DNA of 64,000 nucleotides, from positions 1 to 64,000 of the IMG/VR virus record IMGVR_UViG_3300008963_000727. One strand, written 5' to 3'. The stretch is from a virus. Positions 5,020 to 41,896 of this stretch are shown piece by piece; position 1 is the stretch's first letter; every line of letters begins with the position of its first letter. Under the pieces are notes generated by a model. The model had not been told where the DNA came from, searched no databases, and saw nothing but the letters and a program-made list of their open reading frames with translations. The position numbers were made by a program, and so were the translations under genes.

Positions 5020-6225
5020 ATGACTGATAATTCTCCTCATATCTGTAATTTCTGTAATCGCCCAGAATCTGAAGTTCAGAAACTTATTGTTAATAATTCT
5101 GTGGGTATATGCAATGAATGTGTTGTAATGTGCCAAGATTTATTAAAAGAACAAATTAATGGTTCTTCTGATAGTGTTAATATTAATCCAATAGAAATTA
5201 AAAACACTCTTGATAAAAATGTATTTGGACAAGATTGGGCCAAAATTGTCTTAAGTGTAGCAATTGCAAACCACTATAAAAGAATTTCAAATACAAATGA
5301 AAATAATTTGGCAAAATCAAATGTCTTAATGATTGGTCCCACTGGTTCAGGAAAAACATTATTAGCACAAACTGTAGCAAAGTATTTGGATGTTCCATTT
5401 ACTATTGCTGATGCTACCTCAGTAACCGAATCAGGATATGTAGGTGATGATGTTGAGAGTTTGGTTTCAAGATTATTAATTGCTGCTGATGGTGACGTTA
5501 AAAAATGTGAAAATGGCATTATTTTTGTTGATGAAATTGACAAAATTGCCAGAAAAAGCGAAAGCTCTTCTATCACTAGAGATGTTTCTGGCGAAGGCGT
5601 TCAACAGGCACTGTTAAAAATAGTAGAAGGCACTGTATGCCGGGTGCCTCCAGTGGGTGGTAGAAAAAATCCAAACTCGGGAACAGTTGATATTGATACG
5701 TCAAACATACTGTTCATTGCAGGTGGAGCGTTTATCGGTCTGGGTGATATTGTCCGTCGCCGTCAATCAGGAACAGCATCTGGTTTTACTGCACACATTG
5801 TCTCTCCGTCGGAAGAAGTGGATTTAGGCAAGGTTACCCCAGACGATCTTGTTAGTTTTGGAATGATTCCTGAATTTGTGGGAAGATTCCCAAATGTTGT
5901 CCCGCTAACAGAATTAGATAAGGGTGCATTAATATCAATATTAACAGAAGTTGATGGAAATTTAGTTAATCAATACAAAACATTATTTGCTCAAGAAGAT
6001 ATTGAACTTGAAATTACTCCAGATGCACTTGATGAGATCGCTGATAAAACGCTGGTCGGTGGAACAGGTGCCCGTGGGTTGCATTCAAACATAGAAAAAT
6101 CATTGCTCCCACATATGTTTGAAATGGTTCGGTATAGAGAAAACAATATTAACAAAATTATTGTAAATAAAGAACTTGTTGAACAACCAGCAAGTTTAAT
6201 TGATAAGAAATTTTACAATTTCTAA
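5020..6225 (+). CDS. clpX: ClpX, AAA+ unfoldase subunit of ClpXP
   Basis: Full-length ClpX (401 residues; E. coli 424). An N-terminal C4 zinc finger (Cys 9, 12, 31, 34) is followed by Walker A GPTGSGKT (106-113), pore loop GYVG (139-142), Walker B with FVDEID (D171, E172) and the RKH-type loop, here GGRKN. The small domain ends with TGARGLHSNIEKSL. By alignment with E. coli ClpX from memory, the ClpP-docking tripeptide IGF is replaced by SGF (254-256), so docking on host ClpP could be altered. It has the partner ClpP (21537) and adaptor ClpS (7105) in the same window. It uses ATP to unfold tagged proteins in the cytoplasm; the targets in infection are unknown. Confidence 0.96.
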   Translation: MTDNSPHICNFCNRPESEVQKLIVNNSVGICNECVVMCQDLLKEQINGSSDSVNINPIEIKNTLDKNVFGQDWAKIVLSVAIANHYKRISNTNENNLAKSNVLMIGPTGSGKTLLAQTVAKYLDVPFTIADATSVTESGYVGDDVESLVSRLLIAADGDVKKCENGIIFVDEIDKIARKSESSSITRDVSGEGVQQALLKIVEGTVCRVPPVGGRKNPNSGTVDIDTSNILFIAGGAFIGLGDIVRRRQSGTASGFTAHIVSPSEEVDLGKVTPDDLVSFGMIPEFVGRFPNVVPLTELDKGALISILTEVDGNLVNQYKTLFAQEDIELEITPDALDEIADKTLVGGTGARGLHSNIEKSLLPHMFEMVRYRENNINKIIVNKELVEQPASLIDKKFYNF

Positions 6226-6269
6226 AACAACACATAAATGTAATTAAAGGAACTCAAAGGTATTGACAA

Positions 6270-6509
6270 TTGAGAAAGAAAACTGACGAAATAAAGATTA
6301 AAGGAAATCGCGTAGAGGTTCGTGACGGACAATTTGAACGTGCACTTAAAAAGTTTAAGAAAAAAGTTGATGAATCTGGTGTGCTAAAAGATGTTCGGAA
6401 ACATGAATTCTATGAAAAGCCCTGCCAAGAAAGAAAGGCTAAAAAAGCCGCTGCGAGAAAGCGTTGGCTTAAAAAATTAAACGATGAAAAAAAGAATCAG
6501 CCCTTTTAA
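6270..6509 (+). CDS. rpsU: Ribosomal protein bS21 homologue
   Basis: 79 residues, very basic. The bS21 pattern is visible: [19 protein letters not shown], then a glutamate/arginine stretch and [16 protein letters not shown] with a lysine/arginine-rich helical tail. bS21 binds the 30S platform next to the anti-Shine-Dalgarno region and helps initiation; phage copies are known from marine phages and very large phages and are thought to bias ribosomes to phage mRNA. The start is TTG 6270: an in-frame TGA at 6264 excludes anything further upstream, and AAAGG at 6256-6260 is a fair ribosome binding site. It lies between clpX and hsp20. Confidence 0.92.
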
Positions 6510-6526
6510 ATGAACCGTAATTAGTG

Positions 6527-6564
6527 TATAATAAATACATGTGCAACGCCAACTTGGGTTGCAC
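6527..6564 (+). promoter_or_regulatory. Late promoter plus 5'-UTR hairpin upstream of hsp20
   Basis: ATAAATAC at 6531-6538 (also readable as TATAAT 6527-6532). A 7-bp hairpin GTGCAAC (6541-6547) / GTTGCAC (6558-6564) begins right at the expected transcription start. The hairpin does not include the AGGAGG ribosome binding site 30 nt further on, so it may cap or stabilise the mRNA. Confidence 0.6.
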
Positions 6565-6597
6565 TATTAGTCACTTGCTTAATAAAGGAGGACAACA

Positions 6598-7035
6598 ATG
6601 ACTAAAATTACTTCATTAGACCTATCACCGTTTTACAGAAATACAATTGGAATGGATCGAATTTTTGATCGCGTAATGGATCAAGTTGATACCGCTGGTT
6701 CCAATGGCAATTATCCACCATATAACATCGTTCGTGTTGATGAAGATCGTTATGAAATTCAGGTGGCAGTTGCTGGTTTCAATAAAGAAGAGATAGATAT
6801 TGAATACCATGAAGGACACCTAACTGTTACAGGTAGACAGGAAAACAAAAACGAAGATATTGAATATCTTTACCATGGTATTTCATCAAGAGACTTCACG
6901 CGTTCATTTACGCTTGCCGAATATGTAGAGGTAAATAATGCGGTTATTGAGAATGGAATTCTTACTATTAGTTTAGAGCGTATTGTCCCTGAGACAATGA
7001 AGCCTAAGTCTATTGCAATTACCCAAAAGGGATAA
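6598..7035 (+). CDS. Hsp20 / alpha-crystallin small heat-shock protein
   Basis: 145 residues with an alpha-crystallin domain (about residues 37-130). Visible hallmarks are YNIVRVDEDRYEIQVAVAGF, LTVTGRQE, the arginine-containing strand FTRSFTLAEYV and ENGILTISLERIVPE (the C-terminal consensus GILTI). The preceding ~35 residues with YRNTIGMDRIFDRV are the IbpA-like N-terminus. Small heat-shock proteins hold unfolding proteins for refolding; hsp20 genes are common in marine T4-like phages, where a role in virion assembly is suspected. It has a strong AAAGGAGG site and its own late promoter, and is followed by a hairpin terminator. Confidence 0.95.
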   Translation: MTKITSLDLSPFYRNTIGMDRIFDRVMDQVDTAGSNGNYPPYNIVRVDEDRYEIQVAVAGFNKEEIDIEYHEGHLTVTGRQENKNEDIEYLYHGISSRDFTRSFTLAEYVEVNNAVIENGILTISLERIVPETMKPKSIAITQKG

Positions 7036-7053
7036 TCAGTCTCTTGCAAACTA

Positions 7054-7080
7054 TAGAGCAGGGTCTTAGACCCTGCTCTA
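7054..7080 (+). terminator. Hairpin terminator between hsp20 and clpS
   Basis: A perfect 12-bp stem (7054-7065 with 7069-7080) and a 3-nt loop built on GAGCAGGGTC. There is no real T-tract after it (ACTAATTTAATTT), so it may be a weak terminator or a processing/stability hairpin. Confidence 0.65.
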
Positions 7081-7104
7081 CTAATTTAATTTACGAGGAA
7101 ACAA

Positions 7105-7419
7105 ATGACAACATCATCCGCATCAAGCGAGACAAAAGTAGAAATTAATACAGAGTTGCGTGAGCCACCAATGTACCAACTAATTTATATTAATGACAAT
7201 AGTACTGCATATGATTTTGTTGTTGAAAGTTTGATGAATCATCTTAATTATACTGAGGCTACTGCTCAAAAGATTACTGAAGAAGTTCATGAAGCGGGAT
7301 CTGCGTGTGTGGCAGTTCTTCCATATGAGATTGCAGAACAAAAGGGCATTGAGATTACAGTAAGTGCACGTAGCAACGGGTATCCTTTAAATATTAAAAT
7401 TGAGCCCGAAGCAGATTAA
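7105..7419 (+). CDS. clpS: ClpS, N-end-rule adaptor
   Basis: 104 residues, close to E. coli ClpS (106). After a ~20-residue flexible tail comes PPMYQLIYINDNS, with the N-degron pocket residues N30 and D31; His62 in EEVHEAG is the third pocket residue; ALRP-like ending YPLNIKIEPEAD. ClpS delivers proteins with bulky N-terminal residues to ClpA in proteobacteria. No clpA is seen here, so either host ClpA or the phage ClpX must be the partner. Ribosome binding site ACGAGGAAAC. It converges with the minus-strand gene at 7416, overlapping by 4 nt. Confidence 0.93.
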   Translation: MTTSSASSETKVEINTELREPPMYQLIYINDNSTAYDFVVESLMNHLNYTEATAQKITEEVHEAGSACVAVLPYEIAEQKGIEITVSARSNGYPLNIKIEPEAD

Positions 7420-8204
7420 ATTATTACTTCAATACGCTTTGGGTGATAAACAGACTTGGCCCAAGTTGATCCCTTTTCACCCAAGCAGTTATTAACATAT
7501 CGGATATTATTAATAACAGAATCAACATCTTTGTGGTAATGTCCAAAGCACCACGTATCAACTTTTCTTTCCGTGTCTTGTTCTAAAATTTGTTTAATAT
7601 ATGAATTGCCCAACAGATTATACTGAAGATCATCGTCAAATTCTTCATCGTGTTTTGTAATCATTTCGTGAGGAACAGTATGTGTAACAACAACAATTTT
7701 CTTAATATCTGGCATTGTCTGACACCGGTTGACAGTGTTTGCAAGATAATTCGCATCATTAATTGCCATAGCACGTAGTGTCATTGCATCACCAACATTA
7801 ATGTCATATCTATCAACAGCGTATTTTACTGAGTTTTCAAAATCCATGTTGGGATTGAAGTCGTATGTCCACCAGCCATTGGTACCGACTATCGCAACAC
7901 CATTGATTATGACCATGTTATCTTGCAGGAAAATAACATTTGGTATTTTTTGCAATTCTTCAACTAAGGTTTGATAACTTGAACCAAGATCAGAATAATT
8001 CCAACGATGCTCTGCATTACCATCAATATAAACGACTTTTTTGTAGCATTGGGACAAATGGGTAAGACAAGAAACCGTATCCTGAATATTTTTAGAAATA
8101 TCTCCAGCCACCACACAACATTGGCTGGTTGGCTGTCCATCCCAGTTAAAGCCATCTCGAGTTTCAAGATGTAAATCTGAAATTAAATCAAATGACAAGT
8201 ACAT
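7416..8204 (-). CDS. Calcineurin-like metallophosphoesterase
   Basis: 262 residues with the metal-binding motifs in order: DLHLE (D-x-H, residue ~10), AGDIS (GD), DGNAEHR (GN-x-E/H), VVTHTVP (histidine) and FGHYHKD (GHxH-like). These define the two-metal phosphoesterase fold. The substrate could be a phosphoester, nucleotide or nucleic acid and cannot be read from sequence. It is one of few minus-strand genes, read from a short 30-nt divergent gap shared with the gene at 8235. A second, different phosphoesterase lies at 17028. Confidence 0.9.
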   Translation of the reverse strand: MYLSFDLISDLHLETRDGFNWDGQPTSQCCVVAGDISKNIQDTVSCLTHLSQCYKKVVYIDGNAEHRWNYSDLGSSYQTLVEELQKIPNVIFLQDNMVIINGVAIVGTNGWWTYDFNPNMDFENSVKYAVDRYDINVGDAMTLRAMAINDANYLANTVNRCQTMPDIKKIVVVTHTVPHEMITKHDEEFDDDLQYNLLGNSYIKQILEQDTERKVDTWCFGHYHKDVDSVINNIRYVNNCLGEKGSTWAKSVYHPKRIEVII

Positions 8205-8210
8205 AATACA

Positions 8211-8217
8211 TATTTAC
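8211..8217 (-). promoter_or_regulatory. Possible late-type promoter for the minus-strand phosphoesterase
   Basis: On the minus strand GTAAATA is followed by six bases and then the ATG at 8204. This fits the late-box spacing seen elsewhere but the box is imperfect. Confidence 0.35.
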
Positions 8218-8234
8218 AATAAAAGGAAAAACTT

Positions 8235-8594
8235 ATGCAAATAATATTTGGTGAACCACCACAAGAAATAGTTGAGAAGTATGTGGTATTAGAATTGGAT
8301 ACCATAAAGTATGCTGAAGATGCAGAGCCGATAACTGCTTATTGTGTCATTGGTGGGGAAAATGTTACCTTAGAAGAGGTTTCTGTTCTTAAACAAACTG
8401 CTGATATGCATAAAGCATTAATGAACAATTATCGCAAAAAGAATTGGGATTTTTGTGAGCAAGCAATAGAGTCTCTTAGAGGAAAGTTTAAAGGAGAAAT
8501 GGATTCATTTTATGATGTATTAGAATCACGAATCCGAGACTATAAAAAAGGCAATATTGTATCTGAATGGGATGGAATTTTACGAAAGTATTAA
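8235..8594 (+). CDS. Conserved-looking phage protein of unknown function
   Basis: 119 residues, soluble, mixed alpha/beta N-terminal half (IVEKYVVLELDT, ITAYCVIGG) and a charged helical C-terminal half containing NNYRKKNWDFCEQAIESLRG. Good ribosome binding site (AAAAGGAAAAA, 8221-8231). Its 3' end overlaps the convergent glycosyltransferase-like gene by 4 nt. I recognise no family. Confidence 0.7.
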   Translation: MQIIFGEPPQEIVEKYVVLELDTIKYAEDAEPITAYCVIGGENVTLEEVSVLKQTADMHKALMNNYRKKNWDFCEQAIESLRGKFKGEMDSFYDVLESRIRDYKKGNIVSEWDGILRKY

Positions 8595-38067: not shown

Positions 38068-38095
38068 GATCAGCAATAAATAATATTGTATGATC
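38068..38095 (+). promoter_or_regulatory. Late promoter inside a start-codon hairpin of the homing endonuclease
   Basis: GATCA-G-CAATA (38068-38078) pairs with TATTG-TA-TGATC (38084-38095); the ATG at 38090 lies in the 3' arm and ATAAATAA (38076-38083) in the loop side of the 5' arm. A late RNA starting at about 38089-38090 would be leaderless and free of the hairpin. Confidence 0.58.
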
Positions 38096-38914
38096 CATCA
38101 AAAAATAATAAAGTTAGTAAATCAAGGCTACCTCAAAAAAGATATTCCAGAAATTTTAGGAGTATCATATAGTTTGGTAAGAAAGGTTTCAAAAGGCATT
38201 GAGAGTAAAAATCGTTATGCATCAAGAAAAAATAACAATCCAGTAATAAATGCCAATTGTCAATATTGTGGTAAACTTTATAAAACAAAAGTATCTTTGC
38301 GTCAGCATGAAATACGGTGTAAAGAAAACCCCGACAAAATAAAAGTTAAACCTTCATATGGAATGTTAGGTAAGGAGGGAAAAGGTTCTAATCAGTTTCT
38401 AAAAGCAGAAAGATTAAATCAGCCAAAGCCTGTCGTCTCCGAAGAAACTAGAAAAAAAATATCAGAGGCGAGTAAAAAAAGAGTATGGACGACTGAACAA
38501 AAGTCTAATCATTCTAAATCTATGTTGAAAGCCGTTGAAGATTATCCTGAATCATATTCGGTGAATAACATTATTGGTAGAGTTAAACAAATTGAATACA
38601 GGGGAATTCTCTTAAAAGGTAATTGGGAAGTTAAGACCGCAGAGTGGCTAGACTTTAATAAAATAGAGTGGCAATATGAACATTGTTCTTATCCCTACAT
38701 TTTTGAGGGCAAAGAACGGCGTTATTTTCCAGATTTTTATTTGCCAGAGTATGATTCTTATTTGGAAGTAAAAGGATTTGAAACAGAACAAGATCGGGCA
38801 AAGTGGAATCAATTAACAGCAAATCTTGTAGTTATTGATAAAAAAGTAGTTGACAATTTGTATGATTATAGTATAATGCAACTATTGAATGAACATAAGT
38901 TTTTGGGACCATAG
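38090..38914 (+). CDS. PD-(D/E)XK-type homing endonuclease
   Basis: 274 residues. A helix-turn-helix-like N-terminus (LKKDIPEILGVSYSLVRKVS), a C2H2-like zinc finger (CQYCGKLYKTKVSLRQHEIRC, residues ~57-77) and a NUMOD-type motif with VSEETRKKISEASKKR. The C-terminal nuclease has RRYFPDFYLPEYDSYLEVKG, the PD...E-x-K core, as in vsr-like free-standing endonucleases. Its last 10 bases form the 5' end of the tRNA-CAT. Placement against a tRNA is typical of mobile endonucleases. Confidence 0.85.
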   Translation: MIHQKIIKLVNQGYLKKDIPEILGVSYSLVRKVSKGIESKNRYASRKNNNPVINANCQYCGKLYKTKVSLRQHEIRCKENPDKIKVKPSYGMLGKEGKGSNQFLKAERLNQPKPVVSEETRKKISEASKKRVWTTEQKSNHSKSMLKAVEDYPESYSVNNIIGRVKQIEYRGILLKGNWEVKTAEWLDFNKIEWQYEHCSYPYIFEGKERRYFPDFYLPEYDSYLEVKGFETEQDRAKWNQLTANLVVIDKKVVDNLYDYSIMQLLNEHKFLGP

Positions 38915-39266: not shown

Positions 39267-39282
39267 CATTGTTATCATTGAC

Positions 39283-39392
39283 AAGATGACTGCTGAAATG
39301 GGAGTAGCCGGGTTCGATTCCCGTGCACCCGGTGGCCGGTGATAAAAAGGTAGCTCCGCTCGGTGGTTCAACTCCACCCTGTCAGTCATCTT
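39283..39392 (+). ncRNA. Structured RNA C with two T-arm-like hairpins
   Basis: AAGATGACTG (39283-39292) pairs perfectly with CAGTCATCTT (39383-39392). Inside lie CGGG-TTCGATT-CCCG (39309-39323) and GGTGG-TTCAACT-CCACC (39362-39378), both with tRNA T-loop sequence and 7-nt loops, and AGC-TCC-GCT. No anticodon arm or CCA in the usual places. About 110 nt. Confidence 0.72.
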
Positions 39393-39429
39393 CTCAATGG
39401 TTTTAAAAGTAAAAAAATAGGAAAAATTT

Positions 39430-39876: not shown

Positions 39877-39894
39877 TTTAAATATTAAATCATT

Positions 39895-39980
39895 ACCCCC
39901 TGTTCCCGACAGCGGTCTTCTAAACCGCTTCCTTAATGTTGGGTGGAAGGTGCAAGGTTCAATTCCTTCAGGGGGTGCCA
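39895..39980 (+). tRNA. tRNA-Arg (TCT)-like RNA lacking a D-arm
   Basis: Acceptor ACCCCCT (39895-39901) with AGGGGGT (39970-39976), discriminator G, CCA. Anticodon arm AGCGGT-CTTCTAA-ACCGCT (39911-39929) with TCT. T-loop GGTTCAATTCC. Only nine bases separate acceptor and anticodon stem; there is no D-arm. Instead CCCGAC (39905-39910) pairs with GTTGGG (39938-39943), extending the anticodon helix. May be a truncated tRNA, a tRNA mimic or a fourth structured RNA. Confidence 0.7.
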
Positions 39981-39999: not shown

Positions 40000-40578
40000 A
40001 TGAAAATTAATCTACGCAAAGCACACGCTATTCAAACACAGATTCGTGAAGAAATGAATCGTTTAGATTTTTCTACCGAAATTTCACTTAATGAATATGA
40101 GTGGGCAGAAGACCAAGTTAAGACAGCCAAGAGCAATCTTGATGGTCACTTGAAAACATGGGATAAACTAACTGGCGTTATGCTTGATATTCGCAAGAAG
40201 GTTGCACGAGCAAATGCAGATGAAGGTATTTCTGACCTCCTCGCAGATGCAGCAATGATTGACAAGCAAATTCAACTTTACACGCAGTTTGCAAATGCCC
40301 GACCACAAGATAAAACTACTGTTTTGAACGGTCGTCTTAAAAAGCGTCAGGAATCTACTGAAGCAAGCCATTATGGTGGCTTTGGTGGTGTTTCTATTAG
40401 CACAGGCGTTCTGACTGATAATGATATTGACAAATATCGCTTAGAACTTGCCAACCTTAAACGTACCAAGCAGGAAGTACAGGAAATGATTCTTGCTGCT
40501 AACATTGACACTGAAATTGAGTTAGATGAAGATGAAGAAAAACTTCTTGCTCGTTTAGGTATGATTTCCGATTTTTGA
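40000..40578 (+). CDS. Helical protein of unknown function
   Basis: 192 residues from ATG 40000 (MKINLRKAHAIQTQIREEMN); an earlier ATG at 39943 is inside the tRNA-like RNA. Mostly amphipathic helices, with a glycine-rich hinge HYGGFGGVSIS near residue 125 and an acidic end. AGAGAGAAA site. No family recognised. Confidence 0.72.
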   Translation: MKINLRKAHAIQTQIREEMNRLDFSTEISLNEYEWAEDQVKTAKSNLDGHLKTWDKLTGVMLDIRKKVARANADEGISDLLADAAMIDKQIQLYTQFANARPQDKTTVLNGRLKKRQESTEASHYGGFGGVSISTGVLTDNDIDKYRLELANLKRTKQEVQEMILAANIDTEIELDEDEEKLLARLGMISDF

Positions 40579-40608
40579 TGGTTAAGCCTGTTTTGAGTGG
40601 TAAACCAT

Positions 40609-40850
40609 CCAGAAGCGGTTGAAAAGTGAGGATGAACCCCAGTAAGTTTTTTCTTACTATTTTTTAACAGAGAACGCGTTGATGACGTGACTTTCTGCAG
40701 TGTTCCAAAGTGATTATTTGATTTTGTAAATTGTTCTTTGGAAATAAGCAGTTTGTAAATTGTGATTTGTGCATTGTTTATGCTGGATCACTGATACGGT
40801 TAATCAGCATATGTCTTTTGTTTTTGTTCATTACTCGTTCACCGCTTCTG
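40609..40850 (+). ncRNA. Structured RNA E, about 240 nt, closed by a long-range stem
   Basis: CAGAAGCGGT (40610-40619) pairs with ACCGCTTCTG (40841-40850); the helix continues imperfectly to ATGAAC (40632-40637) / GTTCAT (40826-40831). Inside: CTGC...TTCCAAAG (40695-40710) with CTTTGGAA...GCAG (40736-40751); ATGCTG (40780) with CAGCAT (40805-40810); a small hairpin 40641-40658. The direct repeat TTTGTAAATTGT occurs twice (40724, 40752). No ORF. A late promoter for the next gene begins 7 nt after the helix. Confidence 0.7.
40641..40665 (+). terminator. Weak hairpin-T terminator inside RNA E
   Basis: AGTAAG-TTTTTT-CTTACT followed by A and six T. All-AT-rich 6-bp stem, so termination may be partial; it would shut off the upstream gene. 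Confidence 0.55.
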
Positions 40851-40856
40851 TTTTTC

Positions 40857-40865
40857 TATAAATAT
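40857..40865 (+). promoter_or_regulatory. T4-type late promoter (TATAAATAT)
   Basis: TATAAATAT, five bases before ATG 40871. Confidence 0.72.
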
Positions 40866-40870
40866 CACTA

Positions 40871-41896
40871 ATGAATTTTCGCAGAGAATTTACCGTTGCT
40901 TATCCCTTTCAAGCACAATTTCCAAATGCTATTGAAATAGACCGCTCAGAGTTTTCTCTGGTACTTGACGGCATTTTTGAAAATTATAATGACGTAAGAC
41001 AAGAAATCCCACCCGTACCAAAAGAAGATATATGCTTTATATTTGAAGAAAATTGTGAGTCATATAAAGAGTGGGACTGGGATTTTGTATTAAACAGAAT
41101 TTATAGTTGTCTTAAAGATATCCCAATATTTGTCAATGACGAGTATTACTACAATATCTTTAAAAGAAATGGGTTTTCAGTTTGGAGATACTGGCCCGGC
41201 CATCTAATTGCTCCAATATATGAAATCAACTCAGATTTCGATTTACGCCTTGATAGCATTGACAAAACATTTTGTCGGTTAAGTAGTAGTCGCCATGACC
41301 ACAATTATTACATACACAAATTCTTAGTAGAAAAACAGTTGTTGGATAATACACACTGGAGTTATAGCAAGTGTGATTATCATGAGTGGTACTACAACTT
41401 CAATCGTTTTCTAAATTTAAGAGAACGTGATTATACGGAATTGCCAGAGCAGGAACAGGCTGGATCACACATTGGGCAGATGATGTCTTTTGATAGCCTA
41501 CAGCCACATATAAAAAGTGCAGTGAGCATAAATTGTGAAACTGTATTTCATGGCCATGGACCGTGTTATTCTGAAAAGTTAATTAAATGTGCTAACCTTG
41601 CTCGACCATTTATTGAAGTGAGTTCTCCACATACACTAAAAGATTTGCGAAAATGGGGATTTGAAAGTTTTCCAGATTTGATTGATGAATCCTATGATGA
41701 CATAGAAGATCCACATGAACGTATCGAACACGTTTGTGGCGAGATTGATAGGCTATCTAAAATACCACTACAACATTTTAAAGACTATATTGCGAAGAAC
41801 GAAGAAAAATTACATCATAATTTTGTTGTGGGCCAACGAATGGCAGAGTCCGTTTTCGAGCAAAATTATCGCGGCTTAATATTGCCCAATTTATAA
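40871..41896 (+). CDS. Glycosyltransferase-like protein, paralogue 3 of 4
   Basis: 341 residues. Core: YSEKLIKCANLARPFIEVSS, then LRKWGFESFPDLIDESYDD and EDPHERIEHV. The DESYD block is the best preserved of the four. N-terminal part has an RYWPGHLIAPIYE stretch and RLSSSRHDHNYYIHKFL (motif near residue 140, like RPHR of the others). Late promoter at its start. Confidence 0.75.
   Translation: MNFRREFTVAYPFQAQFPNAIEIDRSEFSLVLDGIFENYNDVRQEIPPVPKEDICFIFEENCESYKEWDWDFVLNRIYSCLKDIPIFVNDEYYYNIFKRNGFSVWRYWPGHLIAPIYEINSDFDLRLDSIDKTFCRLSSSRHDHNYYIHKFLVEKQLLDNTHWSYSKCDYHEWYYNFNRFLNLRERDYTELPEQEQAGSHIGQMMSFDSLQPHIKSAVSINCETVFHGHGPCYSEKLIKCANLARPFIEVSSPHTLKDLRKWGFESFPDLIDESYDDIEDPHERIEHVCGEIDRLSKIPLQHFKDYIAKNEEKLHHNFVVGQRMAESVFEQNYRGLILPNL

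Follow-up and report, generated by a model that had tools for sequence, protein, structure and literature searches.

A family of folded phage RNAs with UUG at seven-nucleotide intervals, encoded beside the gene of a predicted helical protein

Y RNA, which is found with Ro/Rsr, has a long closing helix and a neighbouring gene for an RNA-binding protein. In type III toxin-antitoxin pairs such as ToxI/ToxN, a repeat-bearing RNA adjoins a single protein gene. OLE is a bacterial RNA of ~600 nt. It is structured and acts with small proteins (PMC12054373). GOLLD RNA (RF02032) and ROOL RNA are structured phage RNAs whose function is not known and which often lie near tRNA islands; no protein partner of ROOL has been identified (PMC12286853).

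The locus described here comes from a virus, and the whole stretch of DNA that was analysed, 64,000 nucleotides of IMG/VR record IMGVR_UViG_3300008963_000727, is referred to as the window. It carries a structured RNA, RNA E, which belongs to an undescribed and widespread family of phage RNAs that are real and folded. We consider, with a probability of roughly 0.6, that its members, phage ncRNAs of ~200-300 nt, make up a new class that acts in trans and forms a ribonucleoprotein with the helical protein encoded next to the RNA.

The folded RNA of the window and its close relatives

The minimum free energy of RNA E (40609-40850) is -71.4, compared with -50.4 +/- 4.4 for dinucleotide shuffles (z -4.79), and none of 200 shuffles was as good. 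Since the fold is also kept in close relatives, the multi-branched RNA of ~240 nt that an earlier note had read from the window is confirmed. Its constituent parts (Table 1) agree with that reading as well. The perfect 10-bp end helix joins 40610-40619 (CAGAAGCGGT) to 40841-40850 (ACCGCTTCTG), although perfect 10-bp arms of similar spacing occur at ~15 other places in the window, so that the end helix alone is not rare and proves little. Its imperfect continuation over ~25 positions is present, the P2, P4 and P6 hairpins are the internal helices inside the closing helix, and the direct repeats turned out to be UUG recurring every 7 nt. No ORF is conserved in RNA E, as had been stated; there is one chance ORF of 46 aa, and the relatives differ from one another by many small indels. 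A further hairpin on the 5' side, which the earlier note did not include, is conserved and overlaps the upstream gene at its stop codon. The complement of RNA E is also well folded (z -5.35 against shuffles), and because both strands fold well, other evidence was needed for the strand.

Table 1. Positions of the RNA, its helices and the adjoining features in the window
Feature	Position	Strand	Basis
Partner gene, 192-aa helical protein (MKINLRKA...), phrog_25230-like, candidate DIP1984/DUF6847-like fold	40000..40578	+	alignment, PHROG, model
5' hairpin GATGGTTAAGC...GGTAAACCATC abutting RNA E	40577..40609	+	internal loop common to L001, L084, L099, L107, L118
Structured ncRNA body (RNA E)	40609..40850	+	z -4.79; kept in L001, L083/L084
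Closing helix P1, 5' strand	40610..40637	+	near-invariant in relatives
P2 hairpin AGTAAG...CTTACT	40641..40658	+	MFE and centroid
P4 hairpin CTGC-TTCCAAAG...CTTTGGAA-GCAG	40695..40751	+	compensatory changes among three sequences
Three further UUG heptads, in P4 3' arm	40724..40744	+	
UUG heptad tract TTGTAAA TTGTGAT TTGTGCA TTGTTTA	40753..40780	+	lag-7 periodicity
P6 hairpin ATGCTG...CAGCAT	40780..40810	+	one compensatory pair, most others kept
Closing helix P1, 3' strand	40826..40850	+	near-invariant in relatives
T-run after closing helix, possible transcript end (inferred)	40851..40855	+	sequence
TATAAATA, claimed late promoter, unsupported	40857..40864	+	7 copies in 194 kb, against an expectation of 20.5

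The same locus is found in L001 (IMG/VR contig 3300026114_000004), where the flanking coding genes have ~90% protein identity, the RNA has 73% DNA identity to RNA E and both strands of the closing helix are almost unchanged. Two near-identical copies, L083 and L084, have the same upstream gene and an RNA that is 74% identical, followed by a different downstream gene. As they keep the upstream gene and swap the downstream one, we assign the RNA to the upstream gene, referred to below as the partner gene. In the comparison of the window, L001 and L083/L084, 4 of the 57 predicted pairs show both-side changes; P1 is for the most part invariant across the three sequences, and its unvarying pairs are silent on covariation. 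A DNA search of phages with RNA E returned two chance matches only. The 194-kb record holds no second copy of it, and a transposon or MITE was rejected on that ground. The L001 contig, from a phage, also has two adjacent genes (5725-8244) that by eye resemble TctA and TctC of a tricarboxylate transporter.

The earlier note had placed RNA E ahead of a transferase-like gene. A link with this downstream gene is refuted by L084, in which an unrelated gene follows the RNA, and the downstream gene was accordingly dropped as a candidate partner. Its transferase label has no Pfam or PHROG match behind it, and the 341-aa protein has no tblastn match in cultured phages. A late promoter had also been placed 7 nt past the RNA. 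The 8-mer TATAAATA does start 7 nt after 40850, but as a promoter it is unsupported: a T4-type late promoter motif should be enriched in the genome, and this one lies below expectation across the 194-kb record (Table 1) and so gives no evidence of a promoter. Being ~three times rarer than expected there, the 8-mer could be one that is avoided as a functional motif.

The partner gene and the RNA family beside it

The ATG start of the partner gene was fixed by alignment with relatives. The protein matches phrog_25230, to which no function is assigned, weakly (E 6e-4), and its AlphaFold model is all-helical (pLDDT 88.8). The best PDB match of the model is 3kdq from Corynebacterium diphtheriae, found with a Foldseek probability of 1.00 but an E of 0.03; superposition by VIA-align (Z 9.2, rmsd 7.5 over 142 residues) is within the background of helical proteins. 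We take 3kdq to be DIP1984, of the 'septicolysin' family. The likeness to DIP1984/DUF6847 (3KDQ) is thus that of a top fold match spanning most of the partner protein, whereas the sequence match is below the cut-off: the DUF6847 Pfam gathering score was not reached, and one of 28 relatives gave a sub-threshold match (E 0.0035). The titles and abstracts of the DIP1984/septicolysin literature give no function. Helical matches are easily nonspecific, and RNA binding by the partner protein is putative.

Relatives of the partner gene were found at 72 viral loci by a search from the alignment with relatives. By tblastn and profile search, homologues in cultured phages are present in CcrColossus and CcrPW (Caulobacter), in Brevundimonas jumbo phages and in the Vibrio phages 2.275.O, Vp_R1, SJSY21 and PG07. 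When 84,980 cellular genomes were scanned with a pattern, a single match came up, on a contig of a Myxococcales MAG that is possibly phage, so the partner gene appears to be essentially phage-borne. The 20-69 kb region of phage T5 has neither the partner gene nor a UUG run. The T5 record (L193) has annotated stable RNAs at 40848-41566 (RNAX and others) with no assigned function and no Rfam match.

At most partner-gene loci a multibranched RNA of 200-300 nt lies beside the gene. The eight cultured phages inspected have an unannotated gap of 273-315 nt directly 3' of the partner gene, with a long closing helix; in Vp_R1 and PG07 the closing helix after the gene was recognised by fold and eye. 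In CcrColossus the gene is gp272, and the gap behind it measures 284 nt. In group C (18 sequences), 24 of 41 pairs changed on both sides and 95.2% of cells are paired, compared with 10.8 +/- 1.9 both-side changes in shuffles (0/500 as good) and at most 10 in slid controls. Group B, ten sequences from large tRNA arrays, has both-side changes at 20 of its 39 pairs, again matched by none of 500 shuffles. Base-pair conservation, on which the earlier note had made its proposal depend, is therefore found as covariation in two clades. G-U cells outnumber A-C cells in group C (41/15), group B (67/7) and the window group (26/1), which places the RNA on the strand of the gene.

The covariance model of group C finds group B weakly, at the right place; that of group B has no match in the window and reaches L001 only at E 3.7, and a joint MAFFT alignment of clades A, E1 and E2 gave no useful consensus. 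The partner gene, the heptads and the covarying 5' hairpin join the window to other clades; the internal loop of this hairpin recurs in L099, L107 and L118, with two stem pairs swapped by compensation. The hairpin motif was found nowhere else in 1.86 Mb of sequence. Among the matches of a group B pattern, eight are true family members, seven of them directly after the partner gene and the eighth (L186) at a contig end where only the tail of the gene is visible; the other four are seemingly chance matches in unrelated, apparently coding DNA. The related loci L123 and L127, of one clade, have the partner gene and no recognisable RNA nearby. This clade offers a natural test case for RNA loss.

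Arrangement, heptads and possible roles

Does the RNA act in cis or in trans? It usually lies just downstream of the partner gene on the same strand. At L100-L106 and L112-L115 except L114, it lies immediately upstream, and the group B model finds the upstream RNAs of L100, L101, L102 and L106 at full length (E 1.4e-4 to 1.6e-3). At L112 a sigma70-like sequence, TTGACA-17-TAAAAT (11/12 match), ends ~25 nt before the closing helix. A third arrangement, with an extra gene between the RNA and the partner gene, is seen in L107, L108, L111, L114 and L117. In a tree of 55 partner proteins the upstream clade (support 100/99) is nested within the downstream ones. RNA and gene thus stay together through rearrangement, a pattern that favours a shared trans function over a 3' UTR. 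The alternative offered by the earlier note, a long 3' element of the previous gene, was right in tying the RNA to that gene but does not fit the clades in which the RNA is upstream or one gene away. More generally, the RNA could be a cis-acting untranslated element of the partner mRNA that serves stability, translation or autoregulation and is possibly bound by its own product. The constant strand and the usual downstream position would suit such an element, as would the 5' hairpin over the stop codon in the window and the T-run or terminator-like sequence after the RNA in several phages. We consider it unlikely, however, because the architecture is kept where the RNA is upstream or separated by a whole gene, and because the size, number of helices and heptad tract exceed those of a usual stability element.

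The UUG heptads are the hallmark of the family. They consist of UUG (with variants UUUG, UUGC and UGUG) at a spacing of 7 nt, as a rule in 3 to 6 copies, in a tract that is mostly single-stranded in predicted folds. Over 47 RNAs the z score of UUG is 40.8 at lag 7 and 28.7 at lag 14; in 28 dereplicated RNAs it is 33.6, 21.3 and 13.8 at lags 7, 14 and 21, and at most 2.8 at other lags. The window RNA alone has five lag-7 UUG pairs against 0.6 expected (0/5000 shuffles match), and its tract at 40753-40780 is the only run of at least four in the window. Runs of at least three heptads adjoin the partner gene at 46 of 65 dereplicated loci, compared with 0.0056 per kb in the control. Ten of the remaining 19 loci were recognised by a covariance model or by UG-type heptads, seven (L131-L133, L138, L140, Vp_R1 and PG07) by fold only, and the last two are L123 and L127. 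The window, with at least three consecutive UUG at 7-nt spacing and a phrog_25230/DIP1984-like neighbour on the same strand, thus belongs to the family. A short motif set at regular intervals in a largely open tract could also be a decoy or sponge: the heptads would titrate a host RNA-binding protein, RNase or small RNA, with only a loose relation to the neighbouring protein. This seems quite improbable, as the partner gene stays the same in phages that differ greatly, which suggests that the partner is made by the phage, and among known host factors none with a UUG period of 7 nt was identified.

In the window, in groups B and E and in the Vibrio phages, the RNA-gene cassette is placed among tRNA genes or near them; the stretches examined of group C and of the Caulobacter and Brevundimonas phages have no tRNA genes near it. 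GOLLD RNA was found ~135-205 nt upstream of the partner gene, apart from the heptad RNA, in L119 (2370-2829), L124 (2332-2795) and phage PG07 (L192, 948-1365), and GOLLD and the cassette may be functionally linked. That the heptad RNA is itself a GOLLD- or ROOL-like RNA, assembling with itself and without protein, is very unlikely: it too is a phage ncRNA near tRNA islands, with GOLLD for a neighbour at these three loci, but it has no Rfam match, measures ~240 nt instead of several hundred and has a constant protein partner. If the RNA were a repeat-containing antitoxin and the helical protein the toxin of a type III-like pair, this would account for a tandem-repeat RNA that adjoins one protein gene and shares its strand. 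Such a pair is barely credible here, since the model is all-helical and not of the ToxN ribonuclease fold (no Pfam match to a ToxN-like endoribonuclease was found in the partner protein), the 7-nt repeats lie within one folded RNA and are not long pseudoknot units, and the order of RNA and gene varies. A chance inverted repeat or transposable-element remnant, despite the good fold of both strands and the terminal, inverted arms, is practically eliminated by the covariation, the family-wide heptads and the strict association with the gene.

Several further features were seen in and around the tRNA genes. At 39894-39977 (+) of the window ARAGORN missed a tRNA-like gene that has an arginine-type TCT anticodon, a short D-arm region and a score of 34.6 bits, below the cut-off, to the tRNA-Sec model. 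At 39270-39400 (+) a tRNA-like stretch, with no ARAGORN or Rfam call, has the T-arm-like sequences GGGTTCGATTCCC and GGTGGTTCAACTCCACC in one outer stem. A 274-aa protein (38090-38914) with a weak C-terminal match to Phage_endo_I is possibly a homing endonuclease near tRNA genes. Possible stop-codon (suppressor) tRNAs with anticodons TTA and CTA occur at L084 5805-5877 and L121 4588-4662, in arrays that also carry the heptad RNA.

In the trans-acting ribonucleoprotein that we favour, the RNA and the neighbouring gene, which encodes a small helical protein, would be a two-component cassette whose products assemble with each other. We infer that the RNA is transcribed in the window phage and bound by the protein, with the closing helix and hairpins holding the heptad tract open. 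Each heptad might then bind one protein unit, giving a regular array. More tentatively, and with rather less confidence than in the ribonucleoprotein itself, the UUG tract could be a ruler along which copies of the helical protein are assembled, one unit per seven bases, in jumbo, T5-like and tRNA-array phages of many hosts. Since the cassette is found in or beside a tRNA island in many phages, the first guess would be that it serves translation or RNA metabolism in the course of infection.

This conserved RNA-protein cassette occurs in many environmental phages and in those of Caulobacter, Brevundimonas and Vibrio, which points to an unstudied step of infection, and the heptad RNA is unannotated in all records examined. 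Because CcrColossus carries the cassette and can be grown on Caulobacter crescentus, a harmless host for the laboratory, its function is directly testable. A UUG period of 7 nt is an unusual feature in an RNA, and what reads it could be learned from the structure of the complex. GOLLD, a neighbour of the same gene in several phages, would gain a further anchor through the family.

Comparison with described RNAs and systems

RNA E and its relatives were compared with all families of Rfam 15, including GOLLD, ROOL, OLE and Y RNA, and none reached the gathering score; at E values up to 5 there were tRNAs and noise, such as a chance-level match to SNORD87 (E 3, 40670-40738). Together with the homologues and the covariation, the lack of an Rfam match supports the proposal of the earlier note that this is a new phage ncRNA. 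We found no published description of the heptad RNA in a search that covered few subscription journals.

We know of no description of a 7-nt UUG tract in GOLLD or ROOL, and both are far larger than the heptad RNA. OLE is also larger, is bacterial and had no match to the heptad RNA in the Rfam search. Y RNA resembles the heptad RNA in its long closing helix and its protein-gene neighbour; it differs in that the protein is the Ro ring, whereas the partner of the heptad RNA is a small, predicted helical protein, and no Y RNA match was found in Rfam. The ToxI/ToxN pair differs in protein fold, repeat size and gene order. The heptad RNA thus fits none of the RNA families or systems described so far. 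As far as our searches show, the RNA family, its 7-nt UUG tract and its pairing with a helical protein are without precedent, and the general idea of an RNA with an adjacent protein partner has precedents in OLE, Y RNA and ToxIN.
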